The notes under the pieces were generated by a model. The model was not told where the DNA came from and ran no database searches. It saw nothing but the letters and a program-made list of their open reading frames with translations. Position numbers and translations under genes: made by a program. 64,000 nucleotides of DNA from an uncultured Bacteroidales bacterium (GTDB lineage Bacteria > Bacteroidota > Bacteroidia > Bacteroidales > Salinivirgaceae), in assembly GCA_937981765.1 (NCBI GenBank), contig CALJOM010000002.1, positions 186,001 to 250,000 of the forward strand, read 5' to 3'. How positions within the stretch are numbered: position 1 is the stretch's first letter; each line of letters starts with the position of its first letter. Shown in pieces: positions 2,999 through 41,959 of the stretch.

Positions 2999-3005
2999 TA
3001 GTCCA

Positions 3006-3036: not shown

Positions 3037-3322
3037 TTTTAGTGAAATAAAGGTTTTCGATGCGGCTTTGCGTAAACGAATTCAACTTACTTATTATGTG
3101 TGTTTTTGTGTTGAGAGTCTTACTTAAACCTTAGTGGGAATAACGTTTTGTTAACATTTTTCTTGTCATATTTTTTGCAAACTTTTGAATCATGGATTAT
3201 TTTTAATGGTTGGAAATTTCGAGCAACAAGATGATGTCACAAATTTGTAGCTTTTAGTATTGTTCAACTGTTGAGCAGAAGTAAGATTGCTGAGTTATTT
3301 TCACAACCAAAACCAAAATATT

Positions 3323-3823
3323 ATGAAAAAGTTACTTCTTTTAGGGGCAGGATTTTTGGGTGCAGCTAGCATTTATGCCCAAACAATTTCGCATTCTGTA
3401 ATAGCCTCCGGAGGTGGAGATTCAACCTTGGCATCCCAAGGATTGTCGGTAAGTTGGACAATTGGCGAGCCTGTTATAGGAACGCTTGTTTCTAACGACC
3501 AAACCATAATTCTTACCCAGGGTTTTCAGCAGGGAAGTTTAAAAGGTGTTGTTATCGTGGTTCCGGTAGCTTTTTCACCCGAAATATCTGTTTATCCAAA
3601 TCCGATTTCCAATTTTATCAACATTCGAATTGAAAACGCAGAGCAAGAAATTTTATCGATGAGAATTACGGATTTGAAAGGTAATCTTGTTGCTTCTCAC
3701 GATAAAATTAAACCGGATCAGTTAATAACCATCAATGCTGCAAACTTATCTTCCGGGGTATATATTATTCAGTTTTTTAAGGACAGGCAGTTACTGAAGT
3801 CTGTGCAGATGGTAAAACAATAA
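3323..3823 (+). CDS. Small secreted protein with T9SS type A sorting domain
   Basis: Predicted secreted protein of 166 residues. MKKLLLLGAGFLGAASIYAQ is a clear signal peptide, so the ATG at 3323 is preferred over an upstream start at 3287 that would bury it. Residues about 25-75 hold a short conserved segment (SVSWTIGEPVIGT, LTQGFQQG) often found directly before sorting domains in this phylum. Residues about 95-166 are a type A T9SS C-terminal domain: VYPNPISN, ITDLKGNLV, LSSGVYIIQF. The protein is almost only signal, linker and sorting domain, so a catalytic role is unlikely; it may be a small surface protein. Its stop lies 3 nt from the stop of the convergent S8 peptidase gene, leaving no room for a separate terminator. 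The 324 bp between it and the TamB-like gene holds the TamB promoter candidate and nothing else recognised. Confidence 0.85.
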   Translation: MKKLLLLGAGFLGAASIYAQTISHSVIASGGGDSTLASQGLSVSWTIGEPVIGTLVSNDQTIILTQGFQQGSLKGVVIVVPVAFSPEISVYPNPISNFINIRIENAEQEILSMRITDLKGNLVASHDKIKPDQLITINAANLSSGVYIIQFFKDRQLLKSVQMVKQ

Positions 3824-3826
3824 CCC

Positions 3827-6457: not shown

Positions 6458-6652
6458 AAGAAATTTTGTTGAACTAAGAAAAAGCTGTATATTAGCTCGG
6501 ACTTTTATTCCATCAAATATACGAAAAGGTGTGGCAAAAGGTGTTTTTTTTTGTATATTTTTGTGTAGTTGGGCGAAAAATGAGAATTTAACACTGCGAT
6601 GATTTTTTTTGATCACTAGTTTGTTTGAGCAATAACGTTAAAAAACATAGCC

Positions 6653-22947: not shown

Positions 22948-25812
22948 TTATTCCATTTGCAAAATTTCTTTGATTTCTTCCATGGATAACGTTTTGGGTA
23001 CATTTTGGTTAATAAAGTCGTTACTTAGCAGTCGTTTACGTTCTTGAATCAATTGCATTTTTTCTTCAACCGAGTTTTTGGTAATGTAACGCTGAATAAA
23101 AACATTGTGAGTTTGTCCAATCCGGTGAGTGCGGTCCACTGCCTGATTTTCTGCCTGAGGATTCCACCAGGGGTCGAGTAGAAGCACATAATCGGCGGAC
23201 TGAAGATTTAAACCAAAGCCACCGGCTTTTAAACTGATAAAAAAGAATCGGTAATCCGAACTATTTTGGAATTTTTCAACCAATTGCATTCTCTCTTTTG
23301 AAGCGGTTTGTCCGGTAAGCATTAAGTAGGGGAAGCTCATTTTCTGACAAAAATTTGTATATAAGTTTAAATGACGGACAAATGAAGAGAAGATTAAAAC
23401 TTTATGCCCCTCCTGATAAAGCTCTTCCAGATGGTTTTGCACCACTAACTGTTTCCCGCTGTTTTCTATTTCGGAATATCCGGCAATTTGAGGGTGATTC
23501 GCAAGTAACCGCAGGTGGATCAATTCCTTGAGTGCCAGAATATGGGTTTGGCTTTGATGCGAATTTTTTTCGAGAAAACTGAAAATCTCGTTTCTTATGG
23601 CCGATATTTGTTTTTTATAGAGTTTTTCTTGCTCTTCCGACATTGTACAGTAAACTATTTGTTCAATTTTATCGGGTAATTCTTTGGCAACCTCTGCTTT
23701 TGTTCTTCGCAAAACAAACGGTTGAATTAAGAGTTTCAGTTCAGCTGCTCGTTCTTGATTGTGTTTTTTTTCTATTTCGGTAACAAAACGATTTTTAAAA
23801 TAGCTTAGTGGCCCCAAATAACCCGGATTAACGTAATCCATTTGAGCCCATAGGTCGCTAAGGCTGTTTTCAATAGGGGTTCCCGTAAGTGTTATTTTGG
23901 TTTTGCCGTTGAGCAGTTTAATGGCGGAAAAGATTACAGAATCCGGATTTTTAATTATTTGGCTTTCATCTAGAATAATAGTTTCAAACTGAATTTTTGA
24001 TAAAATTTCGATATCGTTTCTTACTATTCCGTAGGTTGTGAGAATAACGTTAGCCTTGTTTAAGCTGTTTAGAGCAAGTTTTCGTCGGGTTCCAACGTAG
24101 GGAATAACGCGCAATTCTTTAGCAACCTTTTTAAATTCGCTTAACCAGTTATCGGTCAACGACGTTGGCACAACAACCAGGCTCGGCTGTACAGGCGATG
24201 CCAATATTTCGGCTGAGTCGAACAAAGAGAGCTGTTTTATTGTTCCTTTTAGTTGGTTTGAGGCGGGAGAGTAGATTGATTTTAAAAGCGTGATCACCTG
24301 TATTGTTTTTCCAAGCCCCATGTCGTCGGCCAATATTCCGCCGGCTTGAATTTTATGCAATTGCGTTAGCCAATAGAATCCAATTTTTTGATATTCGCGT
24401 AGGTTAACCGGCAGTTCTGGAATCGTTAACGTGGCTTTAGGAGATAAATCGGGAAGCGGCACATTAGGCTGTTGACTTGTCAAGCCATCGAGATATCGGC
24501 TATTAAACCTGTTAAGACACAATTTTCCGTTTTCAACGCTCGAAACTTCCAGAAGGGTTTTTAATCGTTCCAAAAGCTCTTCGGGGAGTAGAGCTTTCTC
24601 ACCGTTGGGAAGAATAATTTCGCGTACGTTATTTAAAATTTGTTTACGAAGTTTTAAAACGGGGATTTTATATTCTCCAAATATTAACTCGGCGTGAATT
24701 TCAAACCAATCAAACTTTTCTTGATGGTGCATTGAAATCGAAACCTCGCCCAGGAATAATTTGTCTTTTATTTCATTTTGAATTTCAATCCCATATTCCT
24801 TTAAAAGTTTTTTATGATGATTAATCCAACTAATAACGTTGATAAATCTTTTATGTGTTGAAAAAACATTCGAAGAAACCAATTTTAACCCGTTATCGAG
24901 TAAAAGGTTGATGATTTTTTGTTCGTAGTCGAAATTTCGTTTATATCGTATAAAATGATAATCGGGTAATTGTTTCACAACAAAACGACTAGGGGGACTT
25001 TGAGCGGTGACCGTAAGCTCGCCATAAACAAATTTTAGTGTAACCTCAAAATCGGAAGAAATTCCTTCATGAATAATTAATTGAGGTTTGGGAGGAATGT
25101 CATGATCAGTAATGGAAAAGCCTTCTGATTGGGCATCAAAATATAGGAGAAAATTCGACACAAATGTTTCAAAATAGGTAGGGACCAATGCAGGAGAAAC
25201 TAAAATGCTTTTGTTCCTTGTAAATGCTTCAAGCATAGATGCTTTGACATTTTCAACTAAATATAAATTGTTATTAAGGATAAAAATGGCCGGAATTCTG
25301 CAAAGAATGGTCATCGAATGGTTGAGCAATTCTATAGGAGAATTTTGATTAATCAAAGTGGCAGAATAGATTAATCCCTTCTCAGTTAGGTTAAAATTAA
25401 ATAACACCTGGATAGATTTGCTTAGTAAACTAAGACGGTTATGAACAGTCAAGTGATTATGAACTTTTTGAAATGCAGGTATATGGTAGGTTATGGCAAT
25501 TTTTATTAGTTCTGCATTTACTTTTTCAATTTGTGGCCGGATAAATTTGTCGAGATCATCTTTGGATATTTTGGACAAAAAATCTCTAAGGTTTTTATAT
25601 TTTTGCCGATTAAATTTTTGATAAATGCTTGAGTCTGCATTTTTATCCGAAAGTTCGATCATGTCGGAGTATGGTTTGGCTAAGGTATGTTTAAGGGCAG
25701 ATTGTTGGTCGAGAAATTCAAATTCGAATTTTTGACTTTCTGTTTGATAAATCCATACGGTGCGCACAATCCACCCAAAATGACAATGCTCGTAAGCTAA
25801 AATGGCAAACAT
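22948..25812 (-). CDS. SNF2/Rad54-family DEAD-like helicase
   Basis: 954-residue Swi2/Snf2 ATPase, a double-stranded DNA translocase/remodeller. The C-terminal half has all helicase motifs: I GGILADDMGLGKTIQ, Ia VVPTSLTDNW, II LDESQ (DEAH-box variant with Ser), III LTGTPIENSLSDLWA, IV/V ISLKAGGFGLNLQSADYV and VI AVDRTHRIGQT. The first about 450 residues are a family-specific N-terminal region of bacterial SNF2 proteins, without a recognisable CxC zinc (SWIM) motif. The cellular role of bacterial SNF2 proteins is poorly known (transcription recycling, repair or phage defence). No restriction-modification or other defence genes are next to it. Start ATG at 25812. Confidence 0.95.
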   Translation of the reverse strand: MFAILAYEHCHFGWIVRTVWIYQTESQKFEFEFLDQQSALKHTLAKPYSDMIELSDKNADSSIYQKFNRQKYKNLRDFLSKISKDDLDKFIRPQIEKVNAELIKIAITYHIPAFQKVHNHLTVHNRLSLLSKSIQVLFNFNLTEKGLIYSATLINQNSPIELLNHSMTILCRIPAIFILNNNLYLVENVKASMLEAFTRNKSILVSPALVPTYFETFVSNFLLYFDAQSEGFSITDHDIPPKPQLIIHEGISSDFEVTLKFVYGELTVTAQSPPSRFVVKQLPDYHFIRYKRNFDYEQKIINLLLDNGLKLVSSNVFSTHKRFINVISWINHHKKLLKEYGIEIQNEIKDKLFLGEVSISMHHQEKFDWFEIHAELIFGEYKIPVLKLRKQILNNVREIILPNGEKALLPEELLERLKTLLEVSSVENGKLCLNRFNSRYLDGLTSQQPNVPLPDLSPKATLTIPELPVNLREYQKIGFYWLTQLHKIQAGGILADDMGLGKTIQVITLLKSIYSPASNQLKGTIKQLSLFDSAEILASPVQPSLVVVPTSLTDNWLSEFKKVAKELRVIPYVGTRRKLALNSLNKANVILTTYGIVRNDIEILSKIQFETIILDESQIIKNPDSVIFSAIKLLNGKTKITLTGTPIENSLSDLWAQMDYVNPGYLGPLSYFKNRFVTEIEKKHNQERAAELKLLIQPFVLRRTKAEVAKELPDKIEQIVYCTMSEEQEKLYKKQISAIRNEIFSFLEKNSHQSQTHILALKELIHLRLLANHPQIAGYSEIENSGKQLVVQNHLEELYQEGHKVLIFSSFVRHLNLYTNFCQKMSFPYLMLTGQTASKERMQLVEKFQNSSDYRFFFISLKAGGFGLNLQSADYVLLLDPWWNPQAENQAVDRTHRIGQTHNVFIQRYITKNSVEEKMQLIQERKRLLSNDFINQNVPKTLSMEEIKEILQME

Positions 25813-26244: not shown

Positions 26245-29200
26245 ATGAAACATATGTATCCTTTTATGAAACGGTTAGCACTCGTGCTGATGTTTGGTTG
26301 GATTGTGCAAATTTCGATTTCACAGACCTATTACTCACAAGGTAGCGGAAATTTTTCAGATCTAGCCATTTGGAACACCCTTCCAGGAGGAGGGGGGGCG
26401 TCTCCTACATCAGTTCAGGCAGCCACAGGCGTCTTTTTTATACAGACGGGCCACAATATTGTGGTAGATGATAGTATAAACATTGCGGGACTGAATGTAT
26501 CAGGGACATTAACGTTTGGAAACAGCTCAACCAATCGAGTAATGTGGGTTCAAAGTTCGGGTATAGTTGTCAATAACAATGGTACTATACAGGTTGGAAG
26601 CTATAATGCAACCCACCGATTGGTTTTGAATGCAGCAAATTTTCAAAATAACGGAACTGTAATTCTACGTCCTGGCGCTATCAACAGAGTAGTAAACGTA
26701 ACAACACGAGGAACTTCCCAATTTAGTGGAACAAATTCACCTACTCTGAGCAATCTTCTTATTCAAACCGGAACCACTACCGCGAATGTAGCATTGATTA
26801 TAAAAGGAGATTTTAGCGTTCAATCGGGAGCTACTTTCACTTCTAATAATTTTACACACAAAATTACCGGTAATTTCAACAACTCCGGGACCTTCAATTA
26901 TAATTCAAGTACCTGGGAATTTAACACCCCCCTGGTTCAAACCATTAGCGGAGCAAATCTTGGTTTTTACAATCTGACAGTAAACGGAGGAGGGGTAGTT
27001 TCTTTAGGCTCCTATTTTAACGTTTATAACAATTTTTTAGTAACCAGCAATTCAAAAGTTGATGTACAAACCACCATTCAATTCAATGGAAACTGGACAC
27101 TACATTCTGGGTCAGAATACAATGCCACGGCAGGAGAAACTCGTTTTTGGAGAAATGGGAGTGCACAAAATGTTTTAATAAACGGTACAGCTCAATTCTT
27201 TGATTTAAGTGCCAGGTATCCTGGTGCAAAACAAATTACGGGAAACATAGTCGTTAATAACTATTTCTTCGTTTATTCCGATGCAACGATTCAAGATGCG
27301 GTAGTTGGACAGACCCATACCTTACGTGGAGATGTTCGGTTAGAAGGGGTAGCCAATTTTACGCATAAGATTGTTCTTAATTCATCGGGAGGGCGATCAA
27401 TTTTTCACAGCAATCCGAACAATACTATTACTTTCGGGCCTGCGGATATCGAAATAGATGGATACTATTGGATAGGAAATAGCGACGTTAATAATACCAC
27501 GCTTCATTGTCAGGGAAATCTTAACCTTATATCAGGATATTTAGTAATTCGGCAAGGTAGCTCTTTAACAGGATCAGCTTCTAAATCGTTTTATCAATCA
27601 ACTAACACTAACTTATATATACGAGGCACAGATAATTACCCGATAGGATTTGGGTCATATACCCACGAAGTAGGGAGTGTTGTCCGGTACGACAGAAATA
27701 TAAATCAAGTAGTGCGTGGAGGCGTAACCTATCCACACTTGGTTTTGAATAATCATGATGCCTTTACCACAGGTTCGGATGTAACCAAAACATTGGTGGG
27801 GGGGGATATTCAAATAAATGGAACGTTATATATCCAACCCGGAAACAATTCAACCGTACGTTTTGATATAGGAAATAATAGTGTTGGTTTAACCGGCAAT
27901 TTAGAAGACTATTGGGATCCAACCCAAACGCGTACAGTAGTTATCACTCAGTCGGGGGGAACATTTACTCTCAATGGAATAGACAACAATCAGTACTTCT
28001 ATCGCAGGGATCCATCCAGCCAATATACATTCAATAACTTTTCCATTATTAACCGAGCCCCAACCGATGTTAGGCTGAAATTCTTTGTAGGCGATGATGT
28101 TACAAATCCGGGAAATTCCACTATAGACTTTACTGTGCTAGGTAATTTTACGGCTACGAACGAAAGCACCAACCCGACCCTCGTTGTAAACGTTGATTTA
28201 AACAATATACGTATAAATGGCAATAACAGCGGAACCTTTACCCTGGGAGACAATGTTCGTGTTTTAGTTGGGAGTAATCAATTTGGGGCCAGTGTAAATT
28301 CTTTTAGCAACAGCAATTTGCACACAAATTCTACGGTTCGTTATGATGCTAATACATTAATCAACATACCTTCTATAGCCTATGGGAATCTTGAATTTGG
28401 AGGAACCGGCGGTATTTTTCAGGTGGTAAATTTCGGGCTTATTGTGAAAGGGAATATATCAAGGGTAGGAGGAACGCCTACCTTCCGTCTCAGGGCGGGA
28501 AACCCAAGTGCCAATCCAAACCATCAAATCCAGGGAAATTGGAACTTAACCAGTTCTTTTATTGATGCCACGGTTATTGGTTCCGGAAGGCCTACAGTAA
28601 CATTTAATGGAAATGGCCCACAAAATATCAGCGAGGCTACATTCTGGCATGTTTCCTATGAGGGGAGCGGCGAGAAAATAATCTTGGGTAACCAAACAAT
28701 TCAAGGGAATGTCAATATAGGAAATGGAGTGACAGTTAATGCTTCAAACTTCAATTACACTGTTGGAGGTAACTGGACCAACCTTTCCGATGGGCAATTT
28801 CTACCCACATTCGGAACAGTTACATTTAATGGCACTTCCAATCAAACCATATCTATTCAAAACGGAAATGGTTCCTTTTTCAATAACATTACTATCGACA
28901 AACCATTCGGCACAACACTAATAGCTAATAGTAATATTACCGCTACAGGAAGTTTAACTTTTATTGAAAACAGAGGTAATTTAGATCTTTTGAACAATAC
29001 ACTTACTATTGGCGGAAACTTGATTATCCGGTTGGGAAATACATTATCATGGACCAATGGAGCCAAAATTCATTTTAATAGTAATTCTGCAGGTCAGATT
29101 ATACGAAACTTTAATCCAAGTACCTTATATCCCACCCTCGAATTTTCAGGTTCGGGTGTAAAACGTTTTTACGATAATCCTCTGTTTATTGAGGGAGATC

Positions 29201-32200
29201 TGATAATCAACGGGGCCACCCTCATGGGAGAGTGGTGGGATCATTACTTGAAAGGAAACTTTGTGAACAATTCAGGAACATTTCAGCACTATAGAATTTT
29301 ATATCTCAATGGGAATGATCAGTATATTGGTTCTGGTGAATTTCAGGATTTATATGCAACAGGAAATGGGACCAAATACCTCACCGCAAACTGGAATCTA
29401 AGGGGATCTCTCACTATCGATACCACAGCAGTTGTGGATGTAAGCCCTGATGGCGGAATAACAACCTATTCAATTACCTTGAATGGGAACTGGGTTAACA
29501 ATCTGTTTAATCCCGACAGAACAAAAACAGGAAAATTCATTCCTCGCACAGGCACTGTATACATCATAGGCAACTGGTCAAGGATTTACACGGGTGATAG
29601 TATAGATGTTAATCACGTTGGTCGTGTTGGCAAACAATTTTATAATTTGGAAGTAGCCTTGGGTTCTAATTCGGTAGCGGCACAGTTGTACCCAATATTC
29701 CAACCCGGATTCCCAAACATTAAATCAGAGGCGAATGACTTAAGAGTCTTGAACAACTTCAAGTTAGAGCAAGGAGTTTTCTACTTATATTGGAATAAAA
29801 TGTATGTTGGAGGAAATTTTGACAATTTAGGAGGAAATTTCCAGATGAATGTATATTACAGCGGATATCCACAGTTATATCTTGAAGGTAATGCGGGACC
29901 ATACCGTTTTGATCCGGGAGAAAATTATTTACTTCGATATATTGAATTCCGAGGGAATGGTGAATATCGTTTGCAACGAGAGACAATCGTTGAGAATCAT
30001 AATGCATTACCTAATGTTTTAATCTCAGCAGGAACATTAAATCTTAATCACAATATTTTACAACTTAACAATCAAACCTGGGGTGATTTAACCATTAGTT
30101 CCACAGGGAGCCTTATAATTGATTCTTTGGCAGAGTTGCGAATTCCTAATAACCGCACTTTAACCAATAACGGTATTTTTAGAATTGTTGGTACTCCATC
30201 AGGAATTGCCTCCCTGCGATGTTCACAACCAGGTTCGTTCAATTTTATACAAAATAGCGGTACATTTCATGCCAAATATTACTCTATTGAAAATACTAGT
30301 GGTTGGGGATTGCGCTTTTTAGGTGGAAGTATCGATACACAGAACAATATGTCGGAGGGTCGTTTTGCTGGAGGAGCTTCGGGTTCCAATACAGCTTATA
30401 TCTCTTTAGAATCAGGGTTCACGCTTAATACGGATTTATTAGTGCCCAATGTTAATTTTTACACAGGACCACAAAAGAACGTCCGTAGGGTTAATGGAAC
30501 GGGTACAGGAAAAATAACCTTCCATAATGCCGGCGGCCCTTTGGCTGGTAGTGCCTACGAAATTGACGATCCAAATCTTGTTGATTGGACATTTGATCCG
30601 GTAAAACTATGGACCGGTCTAGCCGGTGATGGACAATGGAACTCTCCAAATAACTGGACAGGTAATTCAGTTCCAGCCTCTACCGACATAGTTCGTTTAG
30701 ACAATACCCATGTGGCTGGCCCTTATTCCGTTGCTATTCAAGGCAATGCAACCTGCAAATCATTATCAATCTCCGGATCTTCTACCACTTTAGCCATAAA
30801 TGGCGGGAAGCTGTCTGTTGTACTAGATTTAACAATAAGTACGGGAAATACATTAGTACAAACTAACTCTGCTGATAGTGTAATATTGGGAGGTTCTTTC
30901 ACCAATTCTGGCACTTACAACCCAGGAACCTCGATCATTAAATTCGCCCCTGTAACCGGTTCGCATGTTATTGTAACCAACGCCAACCCATTCTACAGAA
31001 TAGACATCAATGGCACAGGTGGTGAAATTGTATTAGGTACTAACATTACGGTAGCCAATCATATTAAAATCCTGAGTGGCTCTTTTAATGCATCCAATCG
31101 AACCATTTTCGTTCAGGGGAATTGGACCGCTAACAATGCTGCTTTTAATTATTCCATTAGCACTGTTCATTTTAACCGAAACGATGCTACAGACCAGGAA
31201 ATTGAGGGGGGTATTTTTTACAACCTTACCTTTTCAGGAAGCTCAGTAAAAAAGGCATTATCCACACTATTTATTCAGCGTGATGTTGTAATTAATGCTG
31301 GATCTCGATTTGATGGCGGCGAACAAACCATTTACGTACGTCGTTTGTGGTACAATTACGAAGGAAACAATGGATTTAACCAATATGGAGGAGGCAAAGT
31401 GGTATTTGATGGAACAGGGACTATTTATGTTGGAAATTACGGAAATCCGGCATCAACTCGCGAAACAACGTTTAATCACCTGTCTTTTGAAGGCAATAGC
31501 ACAAAATATATAGCCAACAATATTACGGTCAAAGGAAATCTCTTCAATTTAACAGGTTCTAACATTTACGTGGGTGCCATTGGTTTTGCTTCTACTGAAA
31601 TTAATGGTACCGCAGGCGGTACGTTTATAATGGACGGAGGATGGATGTATCTTCTTGGAGTGGAAAGTTTTCCCAAAGGATTTGGTTCCTACAATTTATC
31701 CGGCGGACAGGTTGAATACCGTGGTCCAATAGATCAAATAGTAACCGGGGGAGTACAATACTTTAATCTATATTTAAGAAATACAACTAACGGAGCAGCG
31801 AATCCCAAAGTAAATAAAACGGCAAGTGCCCCGCTTTATGTCAAAAATAATATCCATTTCTATACCCAGAATGGAGGTTGGGATGGACCTGTGCAACTTA
31901 ATATGAACGGTTATGATCTGTATCTTGAAGGAACAATTTCTGCTGATGCCCCAAAAGATTCTGTTTTTTATCAAATTAATTGGGGAGGTGGTACGTTATT
32001 TCATGACGGTGCAAACTTTTCTCCAACACCTTGGATAACTCATTTTAACAATTTTATTAAACGTGGTACGGGGGCTGTAATACAGAACAATCATTTTGTT
32101 TTAACCGGAAACATGGAATTCAGAAATGGGACCAGCTTGAACATGCGAGATTATACCATTAACTGTGTAACCAGCAACAAAACCTTCAAAATGGGTGAAA

Positions 32201-35200
32201 ATTCTTACATTTACAATTATACCGTTGATACCACAGCAACCGTTCAATATGCATTTCCAACAGGTTTTTCCTCTTACAATATAGCTAGTACCAACGGATA
32301 TTACCTACGTGGAACTCATAAACAATCTATTCTTCCAGGTGTCGAATATGGCAATGTTTATTTGTGGGATAATTTTGCCCGCCAAGTTTATCTGCACGGA
32401 GATCTACGTGTTGAAGGAGACTTGTTAGTAGGTTATGATCTCATTGAGTTACGAGATAATGGTCACAGTATATATGTGAGAGGTGCTAATCTGGATCTTA
32501 GAAATTATGTTGCTTCTCCTACATCAACGCTCTATCTAACCGGAACCGGCTATCAAAGAATCTATGCCGGGGGTAACTTTAATGACGTAAGGTTAAATGC
32601 TGTTCAAACATCAGGCAATGGACACAGAGTTCGACTCGATGACCTGAATTTTTACTTTACAGGAAATGTACAAATTCAACCCAGCGACACCATTGAAACC
32701 TGGGCTAACGTTTTCTTTAGTGGAAACACATTTACCAATTTAGGTAGATTCGACCACAATGCTCGTATATTTCGTTTCCAAGGGGGTAATCAAACAATAA
32801 ATCCAGGAAGTAACCGGTTTAACGAAGTAATTTTTGAAAATGGAGGAACTAAGAATACGGTAAATAATGGATTTAATATTCGCCAAAACATAACTATTAC
32901 TGCTACGCCAGCCTCAACAGTAGATTTTGGAACCCTTACCCACAATATAGGATCCGAGTATATTAATATTCTTGGAGCTTCTGTTTGGAGTGTATCCAAT
33001 GCCAACCTTATTTTTGATCGTGTAGGGACCCAGTTTATTCCAAAAATTTTTGCCCAAGACGTTTCCTTCACATCGGGTGGTACCAAGTATCTTTACGACT
33101 CTATTTCAGTAAGAGACCTTTATGTTGGGCCAGGAACGGTTTTACGTCCAACCCTTGATCCAACTTATCCAAATAATTTTTCAGTTCGTGGTAATTGGAC
33201 CGTTGAAGGAAACTATATTCCTGATGGAAATACCGTTTATTTTGAAAGCGATGATAATACAATTAAGACCATTACGACCGGAGGCAGAACTTTTGAAAAT
33301 GTCGTATTTAACAGCGTTCTAACATCCAATCGCCTTTATACCCTTTTGGATAACGTTATTATAAATGGGAATTTGATTTTAAATTCCGGGGCTCATTTGA
33401 AACTTAACGGAAAAACTCTATACATAGGTAACGATGATGTTGGACTACCCCCGGGCGAGGTTTTAAGAGTTAATAGTGGTGCAACATTAGAAGTTGATGC
33501 TGCATCGGAGCTCCGGTTTAGTCTTGCCGATCTGGATCCAACCTTTGATATTTATGGGACACTGATTGTAGTTGGGACCTATTATCAACCAGCAATTGTT
33601 AGAGAATATCAGGATTATGGATGGAACCGTGGTATCAAAATGACCGCATACAGTGGAGCATCTTTGCGCTTTAATAATTATCAAGTTGAGCGCGTAAATT
33701 ACGACGGATTTGTTATTAATAATGGAGTAACAATAAACTCAACCGATAATTTCTCCAATGGAGTATGGTTGCGGATGTATCCTTGGAATCAATTTACTGA
33801 TTTATCCGATGGAGTGACCATTCGCGATCGATTCTATTATCTTCAAATATTGACCAACACATCCGGATTACCAAATATTCAAAATGTATTTTTTGGGCAT
33901 CCTACTACGCCGGTTGTTGGACGACATTTCAACGTAAATAGGCCTGTTGGATACACAGGAGACATTACTTTTGATGGAGATATCAGTGGAAACATGGGTT
34001 CTTCCACCTATGAAAACGACCCGGCAAACCAAGTACATTGGCCCGCGCCATCCAAAGTTGTATGGACAGGAGTTAGCAGTGCAGATTGGTTTGATCCCGG
34101 GAACTGGAATCCACCCATTGTGCCAACCGCATTAATTGATGCCGAAATTCCACGGATTACTTCAGGAGGTTCTAATCCTTACATTTTTAGTAGTGGTGCC
34201 ATATGTAGGGATTTAATACTTACCAATGGGTTGTTAACCATAGAAGCTGGGGTAGATACGGTAAAAGTATCGAGAAATATTACTATGGGGGCCTCTTCTA
34301 TTCTAGCCTATGGATTAGATGCTGTATTATTGGTGGCAGGACAATACGATATAAATGCAACAGCCAATATCATCGAGAACAAATCGACAGTATTTTTCCA
34401 AAGAAATGGTGGAACAGTACAGATAAACCCTAGAAATTCAAAATTTTACAATATTAAGTTTAATGGTGTTGCAACATATAATATTTTAGGAAATTTAACG
34501 GTAAATGGTAAATGGACACAAATTGGAGGAACAGTAAATCCCTCAACGGTTAATTATATCTATTACTTATATGGTGATTATGAATTCCTTGGAGGTAGTT
34601 TTTTGACTAATAACATTGGATGGTTTTATTTCCATGGATCAGATCAAATAATTCGCAATGGGCGTTTCTCCAGGTTAGCTATAAGAATGGGAGGAACCAA
34701 AACCTTCAGAGATTCCACAGTAGTTTATTTTAACGACCCAAATTCAGTGAACAAGGCATTTATTATTGGTGCCAACACTACATTGAGTCTTGCTAACCAT
34801 TCAACCATTTTAATTCGGGGGAATTTCGCGTCTTCTACCAATAGTGTCGTTACCGATAACGAACAATCCATATATTTCAGCGGTAGATGGTGGGATGGTG
34901 TTCACACTCATGTAGGCAACGGATGGGTTAACTTTATGGGATCAGACCAATATTTTAACGGAAATTTTGCAAATCTTAGTTTTACGGAGCCCGCTGTAAG
35001 TACTAAATATACTAATGGAAATACTAGTCTTACAGGTTCGCTTACCATTAATAGTTACAACTTCCGAATTCAAGGAAGCGATCAAATTGTATGTTCTTCT
35101 GGAAATGGGCAATTTTCTGTAGGTCAATTTAATAATGGTAATTCAAGAGTTTATTACACGGGTGTAAATTCACATCCTTCTGGTTTTAATGAATACCTAT

Positions 35201-38200
35201 ACCACCCCAACTCATTTGCTTATTATAGCGCTTCATTTAATCAAACCGTAAGAGGAAAAGAAAATGATATCGATATTATATATGGGAATCTATACATAGC
35301 TAATAATGGGACGAAAACTCTTAGTGGAGATATTATTGTAAAATCGAACTTGTATCTTGAAACTTCTGCAACCCTTAATGCTTCCGTTAATACCATTACA
35401 TTAGGGGGAAACTGGTATAATAATAATAGTAGTTTTCCTGCAATCTTTACTTCCAATAACGGTGAGGTCATTTTCAATGGATCAAATAACCAATACATTT
35501 ATTTAGTAGATGTTGCACAAAACGATTTTTATAAAGTTCGGGTGGATAAACCGACCAACACCTTTGTTTATCCGCTGCGAAATATTGAAATAGTCGATAA
35601 ACTTTGGGTACGTAACGGACGATTCAGAGCCATTTTAACCGTTACAGTTGGCGGTGATTTTGTAGCTACAGACAATGGAACCTTTGATCAAACAGGAACA
35701 TACATTTTAAATAAACCTTCAGGTTCGGCCACTATAATGGGGAATAATTCCATATTGAATAATTTGCGGATTACGGGCGGAGCTACCTACAACATTCTCG
35801 ACAACTTTAGAGTGTATGGCGAATTTGTTCTTAATACAGGAATCCTCAATTTGAATGGGAACACCCTTTATCTGGGAGACGGATCAGACGTTGCTTCTAT
35901 AAATAGTGTTTTCAATTTAGGTGAGGGCGGAACTGTAAGCATGGGTAATCTATGTAATCTCAACATTAACAATGGTGGGGAGATTTCTATTATTGGGTCA
36001 CCAACCAATATATCGTCGATAGTATCCACTAATGCTGGATGGAGGTACTATCTGGAAATCAATAGCGGGGGAACAATTCGGGCCAAGAATTATTTAATAA
36101 AAGATTTGCAAATTCCGGGGGTATTTGTTAAATCGGGAGCTATTATTGACCCGCAAAACAATTTTTCTTTTGGAACCTTTAGTAATCCTATAGGAGGAGG
36201 AGTTTGCCTTCAAATTGCTAACGATCAATCGTTTACCGGCAGTGACAGTATTGTAAAAATTTCTTTCCCGCAAAATCCACTTGGTGGAACTCGAAACATT
36301 AAGAAGGTTAATTCCGTTGGTGTGGTTGATATTTATCAATGGACAGGGAATCTTGCGGGCCCTGCCTATGAAGACGACCCATATAATCTTGTGAATTGGT
36401 TTGTTGAAAAGACTATAACTTGGGTTGGCGGATATGGTACAGGTTCTCAGCGCCATGATTGGAAAGAACCCAATAACTGGGATTTAGGACGACTTCCGGA
36501 GCCTGATGATAACGTTGTTATTAATAACACAGGGTTTAGTTGTTATCTTCGAGATCTCCCCGACACAGTTACAATTCGTTCGCTTACTGTTAACGGTCCA
36601 TTATATTTGGTTCGCGACTTAAGTGCTGTTCGACGGGTTTTAAATGTTACCGGACTTGTTGATATTAAATCCGATGTTTATTGGGATGGAGATAGCACCA
36701 TATTGAGAGTTGGAGAGGGACTTTCTGTCAATAGTGTTTTCCGAATCAATGTGCCGAATGGAGGAACCATTGTCATGTCCGGATTCGGAGAAGCATCCAT
36801 TTTCAATAGTCTTAATAACAATAAACTTCGTTTGGTTATTGAAAAGCAGGGGACAGTTAATTTCATGGCCAACACCAATAAAGTTGGGTATCTTCAAATA
36901 AACAGTGGTGCTACACTTAAACTTCCAATTAATTCTCTGGCAGAGCTTCATGTTTTTAGAAGTTTTATCAATTACGGGACTTTTGTAAATACGTTGGCAT
37001 TGCTAAAATTAGGTTCTGTTGGAAATTATCAATTCCTTTCGGGAAATAGTTCCTTTGGAAAAGTAACGCTGTTAGAAGGAAATTACACTCTTGTTAGCCC
37101 AGTATTTACAATCACGGACGATTTAACAATTCAATCCGGAGCATCACTTAACGTAGGAAGCAATACCATTAAGTTTGGTCATTCAACAAATGCTAAAAAC
37201 CTACTAGTTGCCGGTTCTTTGTTTTTTGCCGATAATAGTAGAGGGAAATTTACCGATAACTCGGTTATTGAAGTGCTGGCTGGAGGGTTATTATCTCTAG
37301 TTGGAACGGTTGACAATGAAGTGGTTTTTACAAACCAGGGTTCGGGAAGGTATAGTGTTAATGTGAGTGGAACTATTGCCGCTTTGCATTATAAGATGGA
37401 GTATTTAGCTATTAATGGTCTATTGTTAACTAGTTCTGCTACTATTAACCCAACTGAAAATCTTTCTTTCGGAGCATTTATTTTTGGACATCCTTCTGGA
37501 CGGTACATTACCTTTATGAACTCATGGTCGGATACCATTGAAATTTATAATGTAAACTTCTCTCAAGGAGCATTGTATAACGCTACCAGAACATGTAGTT
37601 CCTGTGGCGGAATTGTTAGGTTCAGAGATTCTTATGGCTTGCGGGCCGGCCATTATTTTGAGGAAGACGATGGCCTTTACAATAGTGGTAAAATTTTATG
37701 GGTGTATACAACACCTACTCTTTTCTGGACAGGCGCGGAAGATACCCGCTGGGATAATCCACACAATTGGAACCCCGAGGCTGTGCCAGCAGATAATGCA
37801 ATTATTTTTATTCAAACTGGAGCTCCCAGATACCCAATAATTGATGACACTTTTACTCCAACTCAGGCACATGTTAAGCGCCTAACCATATATACAGGAG
37901 CATCGTTAACCATTTCTCATAATAAAAATATCAAAATTGCCCAGAACTTTGATAATGGTGGAGTGCTAGAAGTGGTAAGTGGGTCCTTAACTACTATTGA
38001 TATAGGCGGGACTTTCTCTAACAATGGCACATTTATTAACGGAGGAAGTAGCACCATAGAGTTGACATCCCCCAATAACATTGAGTTGACTTTTGGAACC
38101 GCCATTCCTTATAATCTTCATATCAATAGTGGTAATGGCTTAGGAAATTCAATATTCACAACCCGAAGCGCCATTACAATTCAAGGTGATTTAATCATAA

Positions 38201-40932
38201 ATGCAGGAACTTTTGCTATTACTAATTCATCTCATACAATCACAGTTGGTGGTAATTTTGTTAACAATTCAGGATTTCAGCACGGTAATTCAACGTTTGT
38301 TTTCAATGGCAATTCCAATCAAACAATTAATAATCCTGCTGGTAGTAATTTCTTTAATATACAACTTACTGGGAACGGTAATAAAACCTTATTAAGTAAT
38401 ATTACTATTCTTAGAGACTTAACTATTGGTGCTGTTTTGAATGCAGGGAATAATACCATCCAAATTGGTGGCGATTGGAAGGGAACTAAAACTTTCAACC
38501 GTGGTACGAGCACCGTTGTTTTCAATAGCAACGCTTCTCAGATAATCGACAAAAACGAAACGTTCTTTAACCTAGTAATAAACAATACCTATGGACTAAC
38601 GGCTGTAGCTCTTCAAAAGAACGTTTCGGTAGATAATCAATTAACCCTTACACGTGGTAAGGTTGAAGCTGGTATTAATAGTACAATAGCCTTATTATCT
38701 TCAGCTTCCCTTGTTGGTGGTTCGGCTAATTCGTATATTGTAGGTTATCTGTCGAAACAGGGTAGCAGTGATTTTGTATTCCATGTTGGGACCGACAATG
38801 TTTACGCGCCTGTAGCCATTTCCGGATTAACTGGTTCAGCTACATTCAGAGCTGCTTATTTCGAAAGTGGTTATAATCCTACTTATCTGCAAGTAGGTTT
38901 GAATAAAGCAAGTAATGTTGAACATTGGAATCTATCTCGTTTGTCGGGAACTGCAGAGGCCTTTGTTACTTTCTATTGGTACAATGGAACCCGAAGCGGC
39001 ATTACAAACCTTCAGCCATTAGTTGCTGCATATTATGAAACAGGCAATGGATGGAAATCTATGGGACAAAGTTCAACCACGGGCAACACAACGGCAGGTA
39101 CAATAACTTCCGGTGTTCGATACAATGATTTTGGGGTGTGTGGTTTTGGTTGGGCATACGAGGATAATAACTGGACAGGTCTTGTCAACAGTAATTGGAA
39201 CGAACCTGGTAACTGGAGCTTAAATCAAATACCAACAGCTACCTCTAATGTTATAATTAACGGAGGTGCTCCAAATTATCCTGTTCTGTCGACTAACGCC
39301 GAATGTTTTAAACTTACCATCTCTTCCAATGGTCAATTAACTGTAAATTCTAGTGTATGGTTAACCATTGCTGAAGACTTTACAATGAATGCTAATTCCC
39401 AGCTGATTAATAACGGAGAAATACGCGTAGCCGGAAATTACCTTAATAACTCCACTAACATAAGTTCAGGTATTGGATCCATTATGGTGTTTAACGGAAC
39501 TGTTACCCAAAACATCTCAAATATTTATGCACATAATGTTATTATGAGTGGGATTGGTGCTAAAAACCTGTCGGGAGATCACATAATAGACGGGAATTTA
39601 TCCATAGGTTCTACTGTAAATGCTCAAGCATCTAATATTTACTTGTCGGGTAATTTCAGTTTAACTTCAGGAAGTTTTAACCGAGGAACAAGTACCTTGC
39701 ATCTGGTTGGTAATATCATACAATATTTTACTGGTAATCAGGCTAACCTTTACAATTTAACCGTCAACAATAATTCTGTTTTGAATCCCCAGGTGATATT
39801 AAATTCCAATGTAGTTGTATATGGAACGTTAACTTTAAATAATGGCATTGTACAAACAACACCTTCAAGTGTTTTATCTATTGAGGTTGGAGGAAATGTT
39901 AGTGGAGGAAATGTCAACAGTTACATTTCCGGACCAATGCGGAAATACGGTATAACCGATTTTGTATTCCCAATTGGTAAAAATGGACGTTTTGCCAGAC
40001 TTGGAATAAGCAATATGTCTGGATCTGCTGCCTTTGTTGCGGAATATTTTGATAATCCATATACCAATGTTACAAGTGTTACTTCACCTTTGCATCATGT
40101 GAGTAAAATCGAATACTGGGATTTAAGTCGTGTTGGTAGTGTTGGAACGGCCCAGCCTTACGTAACACTCTATTGGGAAGACACTGCGCGATCAAAGATT
40201 GACAATTTGACAACCCTGCGAGTAGCTCATTTCCGATCTTCGAGTTGGCGTGAAGAAGGTATTCCAACAGCATATTGGGCAAACCAGCCTGGGGCACCCG
40301 GCTATATACAAACTGGTAACCCAATTGATGAATTCAGTCCATTCACCTTTGCAAGTATCCATCCTGTTCAAAACCCACTTCCGGTGCAATTAGTACGTTT
40401 TGAGGCTAATGTTACAGAAAAACGCACTGTTTTAGTTGAGTGGGCTACCGCTTCTGAACAAAATAGTGATAGGTTTGAGGTTGAAAAATCGAAAGACGGA
40501 TACACCTTTGAGCGTTTTGCTGTGGTACGTTCAGCAGGAAATTCTAACCTGTTAAACCTTTATGCAACCGAAGACAAGTATCCTTTTGAAGGAATATCTT
40601 ATTATCGATTGGTACAATACGATATTGATGGTAAGAGAACCATTTTCCCGATGGTTAGTGTACAACTTTCTCACGAGGTGGGCATAACTGTTCAGGTTAA
40701 TCCGAATCCGATTAATAATCTTGCCAATTTAGTCTTTAATAAAGAAGTTAGTAACGCTAAACTCACCTTGATTGGAATAGCGGGAAATATGGTTGATTAT
40801 CGTGAATTCCCGGGATCTATCGGCAGAAATATTGATATCAGTGATGTGGTTTCCAACATTCGTCCGGGAATTTACTATCTGAAAATCGAAGTCCATGGGG
40901 AATTAATAGTTACAAAAATAATTAAAAATTAG
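26245..40932 (+). CDS. Giant mosaic repeat surface protein with T9SS sorting domain
   Basis: 4895-residue secreted protein, close to a quarter of the window. Signal peptide in the first 26 residues (MKRLALVLMFGWIVQISIS core). The body is dense beta-rich repeat in which GNW, VTFNG, NQTI and YNL(x)I recur, the look of stacked beta-helix or beta-sandwich adhesin modules. At least five W-T-G...NPxNW...P modules and four P-x-G-F-x-x-Y modules are interspersed. Near the C-terminus VEWATASEQNSDRFEVEKS is the FN3-like segment that often precedes sorting domains, then VNPNPINN and IRPGIYYLKIE form a type A T9SS domain. Expected to be exported through the type IX system and attached to the surface as an adhesin or gliding/biofilm component. 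Asn/Gly/Thr-rich, few Cys. No frameshift interrupts 14.7 kb, so it is under selection. No enzymatic domain was recognised. Monocistronic with a terminator behind. Confidence 0.93.
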   Translation: MKHMYPFMKRLALVLMFGWIVQISISQTYYSQGSGNFSDLAIWNTLPGGGGASPTSVQAATGVFFIQTGHNIVVDDSINIAGLNVSGTLTFGNSSTNRVMWVQSSGIVVNNNGTIQVGSYNATHRLVLNAANFQNNGTVILRPGAINRVVNVTTRGTSQFSGTNSPTLSNLLIQTGTTTANVALIIKGDFSVQSGATFTSNNFTHKITGNFNNSGTFNYNSSTWEFNTPLVQTISGANLGFYNLTVNGGGVVSLGSYFNVYNNFLVTSNSKVDVQTTIQFNGNWTLHSGSEYNATAGETRFWRNGSAQNVLINGTAQFFDLSARYPGAKQITGNIVVNNYFFVYSDATIQDAVVGQTHTLRGDVRLEGVANFTHKIVLNSSGGRSIFHSNPNNTITFGPADIEIDGYYWIGNSDVNNTTLHCQGNLNLISGYLVIRQGSSLTGSASKSFYQSTNTNLYIRGTDNYPIGFGSYTHEVGSVVRYDRNINQVVRGGVTYPHLVLNNHDAFTTGSDVTKTLVGGDIQINGTLYIQPGNNSTVRFDIGNNSVGLTGNLEDYWDPTQTRTVVITQSGGTFTLNGIDNNQYFYRRDPSSQYTFNNFSIINRAPTDVRLKFFVGDDVTNPGNSTIDFTVLGNFTATNESTNPTLVVNVDLNNIRINGNNSGTFTLGDNVRVLVGSNQFGASVNSFSNSNLHTNSTVRYDANTLINIPSIAYGNLEFGGTGGIFQVVNFGLIVKGNISRVGGTPTFRLRAGNPSANPNHQIQGNWNLTSSFIDATVIGSGRPTVTFNGNGPQNISEATFWHVSYEGSGEKIILGNQTIQGNVNIGNGVTVNASNFNYTVGGNWTNLSDGQFLPTFGTVTFNGTSNQTISIQNGNGSFFNNITIDKPFGTTLIANSNITATGSLTFIENRGNLDLLNNTLTIGGNLIIRLGNTLSWTNGAKIHFNSNSAGQIIRNFNPSTLYPTLEFSGSGVKRFYDNPLFIEGDLIINGATLMGEWWDHYLKGNFVNNSGTFQHYRILYLNGNDQYIGSGEFQDLYATGNGTKYLTANWNLRGSLTIDTTAVVDVSPDGGITTYSITLNGNWVNNLFNPDRTKTGKFIPRTGTVYIIGNWSRIYTGDSIDVNHVGRVGKQFYNLEVALGSNSVAAQLYPIFQPGFPNIKSEANDLRVLNNFKLEQGVFYLYWNKMYVGGNFDNLGGNFQMNVYYSGYPQLYLEGNAGPYRFDPGENYLLRYIEFRGNGEYRLQRETIVENHNALPNVLISAGTLNLNHNILQLNNQTWGDLTISSTGSLIIDSLAELRIPNNRTLTNNGIFRIVGTPSGIASLRCSQPGSFNFIQNSGTFHAKYYSIENTSGWGLRFLGGSIDTQNNMSEGRFAGGASGSNTAYISLESGFTLNTDLLVPNVNFYTGPQKNVRRVNGTGTGKITFHNAGGPLAGSAYEIDDPNLVDWTFDPVKLWTGLAGDGQWNSPNNWTGNSVPASTDIVRLDNTHVAGPYSVAIQGNATCKSLSISGSSTTLAINGGKLSVVLDLTISTGNTLVQTNSADSVILGGSFTNSGTYNPGTSIIKFAPVTGSHVIVTNANPFYRIDINGTGGEIVLGTNITVANHIKILSGSFNASNRTIFVQGNWTANNAAFNYSISTVHFNRNDATDQEIEGGIFYNLTFSGSSVKKALSTLFIQRDVVINAGSRFDGGEQTIYVRRLWYNYEGNNGFNQYGGGKVVFDGTGTIYVGNYGNPASTRETTFNHLSFEGNSTKYIANNITVKGNLFNLTGSNIYVGAIGFASTEINGTAGGTFIMDGGWMYLLGVESFPKGFGSYNLSGGQVEYRGPIDQIVTGGVQYFNLYLRNTTNGAANPKVNKTASAPLYVKNNIHFYTQNGGWDGPVQLNMNGYDLYLEGTISADAPKDSVFYQINWGGGTLFHDGANFSPTPWITHFNNFIKRGTGAVIQNNHFVLTGNMEFRNGTSLNMRDYTINCVTSNKTFKMGENSYIYNYTVDTTATVQYAFPTGFSSYNIASTNGYYLRGTHKQSILPGVEYGNVYLWDNFARQVYLHGDLRVEGDLLVGYDLIELRDNGHSIYVRGANLDLRNYVASPTSTLYLTGTGYQRIYAGGNFNDVRLNAVQTSGNGHRVRLDDLNFYFTGNVQIQPSDTIETWANVFFSGNTFTNLGRFDHNARIFRFQGGNQTINPGSNRFNEVIFENGGTKNTVNNGFNIRQNITITATPASTVDFGTLTHNIGSEYINILGASVWSVSNANLIFDRVGTQFIPKIFAQDVSFTSGGTKYLYDSISVRDLYVGPGTVLRPTLDPTYPNNFSVRGNWTVEGNYIPDGNTVYFESDDNTIKTITTGGRTFENVVFNSVLTSNRLYTLLDNVIINGNLILNSGAHLKLNGKTLYIGNDDVGLPPGEVLRVNSGATLEVDAASELRFSLADLDPTFDIYGTLIVVGTYYQPAIVREYQDYGWNRGIKMTAYSGASLRFNNYQVERVNYDGFVINNGVTINSTDNFSNGVWLRMYPWNQFTDLSDGVTIRDRFYYLQILTNTSGLPNIQNVFFGHPTTPVVGRHFNVNRPVGYTGDITFDGDISGNMGSSTYENDPANQVHWPAPSKVVWTGVSSADWFDPGNWNPPIVPTALIDAEIPRITSGGSNPYIFSSGAICRDLILTNGLLTIEAGVDTVKVSRNITMGASSILAYGLDAVLLVAGQYDINATANIIENKSTVFFQRNGGTVQINPRNSKFYNIKFNGVATYNILGNLTVNGKWTQIGGTVNPSTVNYIYYLYGDYEFLGGSFLTNNIGWFYFHGSDQIIRNGRFSRLAIRMGGTKTFRDSTVVYFNDPNSVNKAFIIGANTTLSLANHSTILIRGNFASSTNSVVTDNEQSIYFSGRWWDGVHTHVGNGWVNFMGSDQYFNGNFANLSFTEPAVSTKYTNGNTSLTGSLTINSYNFRIQGSDQIVCSSGNGQFSVGQFNNGNSRVYYTGVNSHPSGFNEYLYHPNSFAYYSASFNQTVRGKENDIDIIYGNLYIANNGTKTLSGDIIVKSNLYLETSATLNASVNTITLGGNWYNNNSSFPAIFTSNNGEVIFNGSNNQYIYLVDVAQNDFYKVRVDKPTNTFVYPLRNIEIVDKLWVRNGRFRAILTVTVGGDFVATDNGTFDQTGTYILNKPSGSATIMGNNSILNNLRITGGATYNILDNFRVYGEFVLNTGILNLNGNTLYLGDGSDVASINSVFNLGEGGTVSMGNLCNLNINNGGEISIIGSPTNISSIVSTNAGWRYYLEINSGGTIRAKNYLIKDLQIPGVFVKSGAIIDPQNNFSFGTFSNPIGGGVCLQIANDQSFTGSDSIVKISFPQNPLGGTRNIKKVNSVGVVDIYQWTGNLAGPAYEDDPYNLVNWFVEKTITWVGGYGTGSQRHDWKEPNNWDLGRLPEPDDNVVINNTGFSCYLRDLPDTVTIRSLTVNGPLYLVRDLSAVRRVLNVTGLVDIKSDVYWDGDSTILRVGEGLSVNSVFRINVPNGGTIVMSGFGEASIFNSLNNNKLRLVIEKQGTVNFMANTNKVGYLQINSGATLKLPINSLAELHVFRSFINYGTFVNTLALLKLGSVGNYQFLSGNSSFGKVTLLEGNYTLVSPVFTITDDLTIQSGASLNVGSNTIKFGHSTNAKNLLVAGSLFFADNSRGKFTDNSVIEVLAGGLLSLVGTVDNEVVFTNQGSGRYSVNVSGTIAALHYKMEYLAINGLLLTSSATINPTENLSFGAFIFGHPSGRYITFMNSWSDTIEIYNVNFSQGALYNATRTCSSCGGIVRFRDSYGLRAGHYFEEDDGLYNSGKILWVYTTPTLFWTGAEDTRWDNPHNWNPEAVPADNAIIFIQTGAPRYPIIDDTFTPTQAHVKRLTIYTGASLTISHNKNIKIAQNFDNGGVLEVVSGSLTTIDIGGTFSNNGTFINGGSSTIELTSPNNIELTFGTAIPYNLHINSGNGLGNSIFTTRSAITIQGDLIINAGTFAITNSSHTITVGGNFVNNSGFQHGNSTFVFNGNSNQTINNPAGSNFFNIQLTGNGNKTLLSNITILRDLTIGAVLNAGNNTIQIGGDWKGTKTFNRGTSTVVFNSNASQIIDKNETFFNLVINNTYGLTAVALQKNVSVDNQLTLTRGKVEAGINSTIALLSSASLVGGSANSYIVGYLSKQGSSDFVFHVGTDNVYAPVAISGLTGSATFRAAYFESGYNPTYLQVGLNKASNVEHWNLSRLSGTAEAFVTFYWYNGTRSGITNLQPLVAAYYETGNGWKSMGQSSTTGNTTAGTITSGVRYNDFGVCGFGWAYEDNNWTGLVNSNWNEPGNWSLNQIPTATSNVIINGGAPNYPVLSTNAECFKLTISSNGQLTVNSSVWLTIAEDFTMNANSQLINNGEIRVAGNYLNNSTNISSGIGSIMVFNGTVTQNISNIYAHNVIMSGIGAKNLSGDHIIDGNLSIGSTVNAQASNIYLSGNFSLTSGSFNRGTSTLHLVGNIIQYFTGNQANLYNLTVNNNSVLNPQVILNSNVVVYGTLTLNNGIVQTTPSSVLSIEVGGNVSGGNVNSYISGPMRKYGITDFVFPIGKNGRFARLGISNMSGSAAFVAEYFDNPYTNVTSVTSPLHHVSKIEYWDLSRVGSVGTAQPYVTLYWEDTARSKIDNLTTLRVAHFRSSSWREEGIPTAYWANQPGAPGYIQTGNPIDEFSPFTFASIHPVQNPLPVQLVRFEANVTEKRTVLVEWATASEQNSDRFEVEKSKDGYTFERFAVVRSAGNSNLLNLYATEDKYPFEGISYYRLVQYDIDGKRTIFPMVSVQLSHEVGITVQVNPNPINNLANLVFNKEVSNAKLTLIGIAGNMVDYREFPGSIGRNIDISDVVSNIRPGIYYLKIEVHGELIVTKIIKN
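27636..35320 (+). repeat. P-x-G-F-x-x-Y module repeated four times in the giant surface protein
   Basis: Segments near 27639 (YPIGFGSYTH), 31669 (FPKGFGSYNL), 32254 (FPTGFSSYN) and 35172 (HPSGFNEY) are each followed 10-25 residues later by a Q-x-V/I-x-x-G-V/K-x-Y/I...N-L-x-L strand. I do not recognise it as a named domain. Confidence 0.65.
30600..39260 (+). repeat. W-T-G...NW...P module repeated five times in the giant surface protein
   Basis: Modules start near 30607 (LWTGLAGDGQWNSPNNW), 34059 (VWTGVSSADWFDPGNW), 36418 (TWVGGYG...WKEPNNW), 37722 (FWTGAEDTRWDNPHNW) and 39168 (NWTGLVNSNWNEPGNW), each followed by a Pro-x(2-5)-V/I strand. The first three, and loosely the fourth, are preceded by a conserved Y-E-x-D-D/P-x-x-x-V-x-W tail (AYEIDDPNLVDW, TYENDPANQVHW, AYEDDPYNLVNW). 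The protein is thus built from larger units closed by this pair of motifs. Divergence at DNA level is high, so recent slippage is not indicated. Confidence 0.8.
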
Positions 40933-41098: not shown

Positions 41099-41959
41099 AT
41101 GAAAACAAACTTATGTATTGTGTCGTTGCTTACGATTTTAGCCTTGAATCTTAACGCGCAGTTGGTTGTTCCAACACAAGATGAATTGCAACGCTTTTTG
41201 AAAACAAAAACCATTATTTTTCTGGAAGATAATCCGCTACTGAACTATAATCAAAAAATTCAGGAAACGGCAAAAAAACACTGGAAAATTACACCCTACG
41301 AATTTATGACCTTTAACGAAAAGGTTTTTGATTCTCTGAGATTTGATCCAAACCTTTCGTTTTTGATGTTAAATAACGTTTATTTCAAACGCGACAGAGA
41401 AATTGCGGAATATGTTTTTCTAAACGTTACCCTCGGGGGAAATTATCCAACGGTAAAAGATATGCCTACAATTTCTGGTCTTCCGATATCTTATGCTAAT
41501 GTTGATGAGAGTACTTACGATTACAAACTGGGATTAATTTTGCGATTTATTGAACAGCATGTTCATAATTTGATGAATAATCCTAAAATCAAATCATCGA
41601 AGCGGGCATTGAAATTTTATTCCGAGAACCGGAAAAAAATCCACAATAAAACTCTTTATCTAAGAGCTGAGGAACTTACAGCTGAGGTTAACACTGTTGC
41701 CAAAATAAAAAAATATTATCCCTATAAAGTTAAAATTGCTACACCAGAGGAAATTGAGGCCGTTGTTGATAAATACGACTCCGAAGCTGTGATTTTGCAT
41801 CAGGTAGCTCCTATGAAAGACCACAAAAAAGCTCGTTGCTGGAATGTAATATTAGGAGCCGACGATGCCGCATTGTATTACTTTGGTTGGTTCCATATCA
41901 AAAAAGGGAAACAAGCACAAGGAATGCGTGCCATTGATTTCAAAAAACTTGCCAAGTAA
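41099..41959 (+). CDS. Secreted conserved hypothetical protein
   Basis: 286 residues with a signal peptide (MKTNLCIVSLLTILALNLNAQ). No named domain recognised. Conspicuous features are a hydrophilic, Lys-rich body, an aromatic-rich C-terminus (ALYYFGWFHIKKGKQAQGMRAIDF) and ARCWNVILGADDAALYY, which looks like a conserved core. Bacteroidota proteins of this size with this tail exist in my memory only as hypotheticals, so I assign no function. It stands between two intrinsic terminators and is probably transcribed alone. Confidence 0.75.
   Translation: MKTNLCIVSLLTILALNLNAQLVVPTQDELQRFLKTKTIIFLEDNPLLNYNQKIQETAKKHWKITPYEFMTFNEKVFDSLRFDPNLSFLMLNNVYFKRDREIAEYVFLNVTLGGNYPTVKDMPTISGLPISYANVDESTYDYKLGLILRFIEQHVHNLMNNPKIKSSKRALKFYSENRKKIHNKTLYLRAEELTAEVNTVAKIKKYYPYKVKIATPEEIEAVVDKYDSEAVILHQVAPMKDHKKARCWNVILGADDAALYYFGWFHIKKGKQAQGMRAIDFKKLAK

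Follow-up and report, generated by a model that had tools for sequence, protein, structure and literature searches.

RemA of Flavobacterium johnsoniae, a gliding adhesin exported by the type IX secretion system (T9SS) and reportedly a lectin, as the title of a reference has it, combines a type A sorting tail with a place at the cell surface, as we propose for the giant protein described here. In the type A precedent the tail is cleaved and the body of the protein is tethered to the surface. RemA and the giant have one kind of module in common, termed the W-module (8gl6_D 891-959, E 4.3e-11). The RemA chain in the PDB is 1,436 residues long, whereas the giant has 4,895 residues made up mostly of beta-strand repeats and shows no lectin domain in Pfam and NCBIfam searches. 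The W-module also weakly matches Mfa5 (6to1_A, E 0.0055), a subunit of the minor fimbrium that we take to be from Porphyromonas gingivalis; unlike the giant, its chain of 1,027 residues shows no series of solenoids. Right-handed beta-helices of the kind predicted in the giant occur in Antigen 43, HMW1 and EtpA (Z about 12-13), autotransporter or two-partner proteins that use another export route and are far shorter.

The label RemA on the PDB chain 8gl6_D is to be taken as provisional, because the 8GL6 paper names the trapped substrate as RemZ, a homologue of RemA (PMC10994853). The giant gliding adhesin SprB of F. johnsoniae is another T9SS cargo of very large size, located on the cell surface as is proposed for the giant. 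According to PMC10202324 it carries a type B tail and is served by the carrier SprF, whereas the giant has a type A tail and no type B tail, and neither of the two genes adjacent to it (Table 1) matches SprF/PorP. Surface giants of 3,000-8,000 residues with beta-solenoid domains in four of them (Giant1-4) are also described for Apilactobacillus kunkeei (Giant1-5), but this organism is Gram-positive, the solenoid is a single N-terminal domain, and Giant1-3 consist mostly of alpha-helical repeats (PMC12863079).

Giant bacterial genes have been called strain-specific in an earlier survey, as cited in PMC11573180. The gene analysed here is the opposite: it is collinear among relatives, appears to be largely vertically inherited, and is under uniform purifying selection in the pair of genes in which this was measured. 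Surface proteins of giant size that leave the cell by the T9SS are already known, as are adhesins with a beta-helix, and it is conserved length and descent that mark this family. No description of the giant was found in the literature searched, a statement that extends to the papers within that search. The family provides a testable case for the purpose of a putative half-megadalton surface fibre of conserved length, as well as a demanding cargo with which to study the passage of very long beta-solenoids through the type IX channel.

An intact reading frame with predicted signals for type IX export

The window analysed is a stretch of 64,000 nucleotides from the genome of an uncultured Bacteroidales bacterium (18 contigs totalling 2.32 Mb, completeness 92%). 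The uninterrupted frame of 14.7 kb that an earlier note on this DNA had described is confirmed and runs from ATG to stop (Table 1); the chance of a random frame this long is about 10^-142, as calculated from base composition (window G+C 39.6%). The encoded protein has a predicted pI of 6.0. Its start, MKHMYPFMKRLALVLMFGWIVQISISQTYY..., is shaped like a signal peptide as judged by eye; a second methionine at residue 8 provides an alternative start. The hairpin and T run found just after the stop codon, which a simple terminator scanner did not report, probably constitute an intrinsic terminator, and the giant gene is therefore probably transcribed alone.

Table 1. Features of the giant gene and its flanks, with positions in the window.
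Feature	Residues	Position	Strand	Basis or remark
Whole frame	1-4895	26245..40932	+	4,895 aa, 532.6 kDa
Signal-peptide-like N-terminus	about 1-27	26245..26325	+	by eye
W-module 1, divergent	28-105	26326..26559	+	profile search
Cap module 1	1257-1455	30013..30609	+	profile search
W-module 2	1456-1520	30610..30804	+	profile search; motif also present
Cap module 2	2411-2606	33475..34062	+	profile search
W-module 3	2606-2680	34060..34284	+	profile search
Cap module 3	3193-3392	35821..36420	+	profile searches
W-module 4	3392-3465	36418..36639	+	profile search
Cap module 4	3626-3822	37120..37710	+	profile search
W-module 5	3824-3901	37714..37947	+	profile search
Beta-helix stretch, best-predicted part	3975-4145	38167..38679	+	pLDDT of 10-residue blocks 69-93
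C-terminal beta-rich module 1	4151-4305	38695..39159	+	profile searches
W-module 6	4308-4384	39166..39396	+	profile search
C-terminal beta-rich module 2	4548-4704	39886..40356	+	profile searches
Type A T9SS sorting domain	4819-4895	40699..40929	+	TIGR04183 26.9 bits, cut-off 23
Hairpin then T run, just after stop codon		40951..40983	+	fold -19.3 kcal/mol, z -7.3
SNF2-type helicase, divergent neighbour		22948..25812	-	indel control; also adjoins relatives in G003, G004
286-aa protein, probably exported		41099..41959	+	N-terminus by eye; adjoins relative in G003, 54% identical

The C-terminal sorting domain claimed in the earlier note scores above the curated cut-off of TIGR04183, the sole type of sorting domain found on the giant (NCBIfam); the Pfam model PF18962 reaches 21.8 bits there, under its cut-off of 27. 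The SprA translocon gene is present in the same genome (2,376 bits, cut-off 200), and together with the sorting domain it supports the identification of the giant as a T9SS cargo. The genome has 56 listed sorting-domain matches, 55 of them above cut-off, and the giant is the longest frame among the matches listed. When the C-termini of relatives were scanned (n=17), the type A tail was above cut-off in 13 and just below it in 2, and no recognisable sorting domain was seen in the remaining 2, from genomes G069 and G333. These two, both of family f65, have a similar short last stretch (IKNN / IPNN; loci L083 15600-15649 and L085 16820-16875).

Module organization and predicted fold

Searches with profiles built from relatives divide the giant into six blocks. 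Each block is opened by a W-module, continues with repeats, and ends in a cap module (blocks 1-4) or in a C-terminal beta-rich module (blocks 5-6), which gives six, four and two copies of these modules, respectively. The W-module is characterized by the motif W..G....W....NW....P (W..W..NW..P type), the cap modules span about 200 residues with a GxxYExDPxxxVxW-like motif at the end, and the beta-rich modules span about 155 residues each. An approximately 80-residue repeat was found in 25 copies by each of two single profiles. The "at least two recurring module types" of the earlier note are thus real and were understated.

The W-module weakly resembles two Pfam families, in both cases under Pfam's cut-off in the member shown: with E values up to 1 allowed, Amnionless (PF14828) matches 11 of 22 modules (best E 0.00083) and G8 (PF10162) matches 5 of 22 (best E 0.1). 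In profile searches the cap module gave one chance-like match (E 2.1) and the beta-rich module none, and the whole giant had no match up to E 1 among PDB sequences. The lack of a recognised enzyme domain, as had been noted before, holds for searches of Pfam, NCBIfam and PDB sequences.

Structure models covered residues 3380-3905 and 3816-4745. The first is weak (mean pLDDT 50), and the second is confident only in parts, chiefly at 3975-4145 (mean pLDDT 55.5 overall). This best-predicted stretch is modelled as a right-handed parallel beta-helix and resembles tailspikes, Antigen 43 and HMW1 at a Z of about 13 in a VIA-align list whose missing families are not read as absent; Foldseek returned no match at E <= 0.001 for either model. 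The beta-strand architecture suggested earlier is supported by this model of one part, and on the basis of homology among the ~80-residue repeats we infer a beta-helix along most of the giant. Beta-helices have 20-25 residues per turn and rise 0.48 nm per turn; by this general rule, about 4,000 solenoid residues would yield a rod of roughly 75-95 nm.

Distribution, conservation and descent of the giant

We sought relatives with a profile of residues 1001-1500 (E <= 1e-10) in a sample of 393 genomes of the order, numbered here with the prefix G. The profile matches 44 of the 393, and a match of near-whole length is present in 22 genomes from 11 families, the giant's own genome included. At class level, 395 genomes were sampled and 10 of them match, among them the giant's own genome and G034, which are already in the order count; G541, an additional genome from outside the order, shows a nearly complete match. 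There is no match in G001 and G002, of the same genus, or in G005, of the same family and 85% complete. The gene seems dispensable, because it is scattered over the order, in 22 of the 393 genomes, and had no match in either same-genus genome checked.

The earlier note had raised a split of the frame in closely related genomes as a possible objection; G003 and G004, of the same family, each carry a single full frame. For 17 of the 21 other genomes we retrieved the DNA of the gene, which with the giant itself gives 20 genes from 18 genomes. Eighteen of the 20, the giant included, are complete in the fetched DNA, and G241 and G282b run off the contig. In the four other genomes the gene is split only by a contig break (G195, 1,881 + 3,030 residues), present as fragments at contig edges (G109, G178), or interrupted by frame breaks (G246); these breaks, and those in the out-of-order G541, are either real or assembly errors. 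Two genomes have two copies each, which group together in G031 (L086, L087) and are deeply diverged in G282 (L089, L090). A second giant is also encoded in the host genome itself (L040, contig 12, about 78171-90310), with a frame of 3,864 residues from Met and its own partly collinear family of 3,005-4,522 residues in relatives. A break in the L040 frame, due to assembly error or decay, precedes the sorting domain, and the domain sits in another frame.

Relatives of 4,899 and 4,906 residues from same-family genomes are collinear with the giant over almost the full length at 39% identity, and a relative of 4,984 residues from another family also aligns over almost its full length. The largest gaps against G003, G004 and G023 are 12, 11 and 13 residues (at identities of 41, 41 and 34.5%), so that in these three relatives, none of them of the same species, no gap exceeds 13 residues and none indicates a change in repeat number. 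In the core alignment of 20 sequences from 18 genomes and 9 families, every 150-residue segment between residues 151 and 3750 corresponds to 115-181 residues in all 20 sequences. Beyond residue ~3900 the tail is variable, and complete frames range from 4,371 to 5,356 residues.

Collinearity was measured as the share of 80-residue query segments with a significant match whose best match is at the collinear place. This share is 97.8% in G003, 98.9% in G094, 91.0% in G023, 86.4% in G229 and 95.5% in G061. In far relatives it is 72.7% (G031a) and 60-62% (G069, G034, G333), and there the repeats are not always distinguishable from one another. The description of the protein as a "mosaic", in the sense of freely shuffled modules, is not supported, given that core order and length are conserved, and by these alignments the giant does not appear to be a strain-specific repeat mosaic.

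Selection was estimated with our own implementation of the Nei-Gojobori count. For the pair G229/G132, which has one gapped position among 4,762 aligned codons, dN/dS is 0.082 overall and 0.04-0.11 in all 15 segments along the gene; purifying selection is uniform along the giant in this one measurable pair. The pair G232/G372 gave a dN/dS of 0.20 with dS near 2, and the value for G003/G004 was discarded as dS was saturated. The core tree agrees with the SprA tree at the supported family-level groups (f1, f19, f1+f19, f30, f65, f30+f65 and f57+f105+f11 are common to both), with different branching inside f57+f105+f11. G282 stands apart from other f90 genomes in both trees, and has two diverged copies in the core tree. 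Pairwise identities of the giant and of SprA correlate with r 0.69 over 120 pairs from 16 genomes, these pairs being related and non-independent. The comparison points to largely vertical inheritance of the giant.

Proposed role and alternative explanations

Our best reading, to which we assign a probability of about 0.5, is that the giant is a stiff beta-solenoid fibre, exported by the T9SS and held at the cell surface, whose full length is selected. The signal peptide would take the protein across the inner membrane, and the type A sorting domain would direct it through SprA across the outer one. Outside the cell it would fold into successive right-handed beta-helix rods, each opened by a W-module, four of them closed by a cap and the last two by a beta-rich module. 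By analogy with the type A precedent, the tail would then be cut off and the body tethered, and on the cell surface the resulting fibre could be a spacer, a scaffold or a tether.

Taken together, the even selection, the fixed order of the parts and T9SS export favour a surface fibre that works via its whole length. That length and part order persist in distant relatives points to a need for the entire molecule, beyond a tip that sticks; because the whole body would be selected, and not a tip or a copy number, the fibre is likely to act through a defined length and shape. Adhesion, gliding and spacing seem inseparable by sequence. Of the long T9SS adhesin or matrix fibre envisaged in the earlier note, the status as T9SS cargo, the beta architecture and the lack of an enzyme domain stand, and its mosaic nature does not. 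In a narrower version, which we offer tentatively and consider unlikely, the giant would be a molecular ruler or tether, a fixed rod of ~75-95 nm that sets the distance to a partner cell, sheath or substrate. Such a ruler would be ancient, and selection would act on its overall length and on the sequence in which its dozens of diverged repeats follow one another. Ruler proteins inside molecular machines are under similar selection for length, whereas the giant would act outside the cell and reach its place via the type IX channel.

Conservation of length may also be what normal vertical descent of a folded protein produces, with length itself not selected, an explanation that is possible if somewhat doubtful; it overlaps the other readings and denies the length claim alone. 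It agrees with the frequency of gap openings: per 100 columns the giant has about 1.7, at 39% identity, and the neighboring SNF2 helicase has 1.2-1.35, at 36-37%. The giant's indel rate is near the one seen in a globular enzyme and slightly higher, not lower. However, repeat proteins commonly gain and lose units, and in three relatives that are 34-41% identical to the giant none of its ~25 similar repeats has been gained or lost as a whole unit.

A role as a RemA-like gliding adhesin, in which the fibre would ride the GldJ track and grip the substrate with its length setting the reach, is unlikely in our estimation. The best PDB sequence match of the W-module is indeed the chain labelled RemA (8gl6_D, E 4e-11), and RemA shares the type A tail (PMC10202324), but just one module of ~75 residues is common to the two proteins, and the giant lacks a recognisable lectin domain in the searches described above. 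GldJ has a match in the giant's own genome (503.7 bits, cut-off 458.2) and is over its cut-off in 12 of the 21 genomes examined; however, it is also over its cut-off in G001 and G002, where the giant was not found. We discarded the gliding link via GldJ, which fails to discriminate.

The idea closest to that of the earlier note, an adhesin for a particular partner surface such as a polysaccharide, other cells or the host, strikes us as unlikely too. Solenoids often bind glycans, and the N-terminal part, presumably the end far from the cell, is extended by about 700-1,100 residues in three relatives (G034, G241, G333). A partner-specific adhesin would, however, be expected to diversify, and the giant is under even, strong purifying selection with no gain or loss of core repeats.

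That the giant is a carbohydrate-active beta-helix, of the type seen in lyases or glycosidases, whose active site has escaped recognition is very improbable, and we rejected the enzyme reading for want of conserved polar clusters: PL6 lyases and GH110 are among the VIA-align rows (Z about 10-11), but a fold common to enzymes shows no function, there is no family match in Pfam or NCBIfam, and no enzyme-like cluster stands out among the 315 columns that are conserved in 19 or all 20 of the aligned sequences (107 Gly, 86 aromatic F, W or Y, and 24 charged or His). The charged positions among these columns are few and scattered, and the columns appear structural, not catalytic.

Genomic neighborhood

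The 286-residue protein encoded downstream of the giant has no Pfam match over cut-off and no NCBIfam match. An operon of the two genes was considered and is weakened by the hairpin after the giant's stop codon and by the neighbor not being found beside the relative in G004. Elsewhere in the window, positions 2-2998 show a weak TamB-like match (E 2e-9, far under cut-off), and positions 3827-6616 encode a subtilisin-like protease that carries its own type A T9SS tail (40.6 bits).
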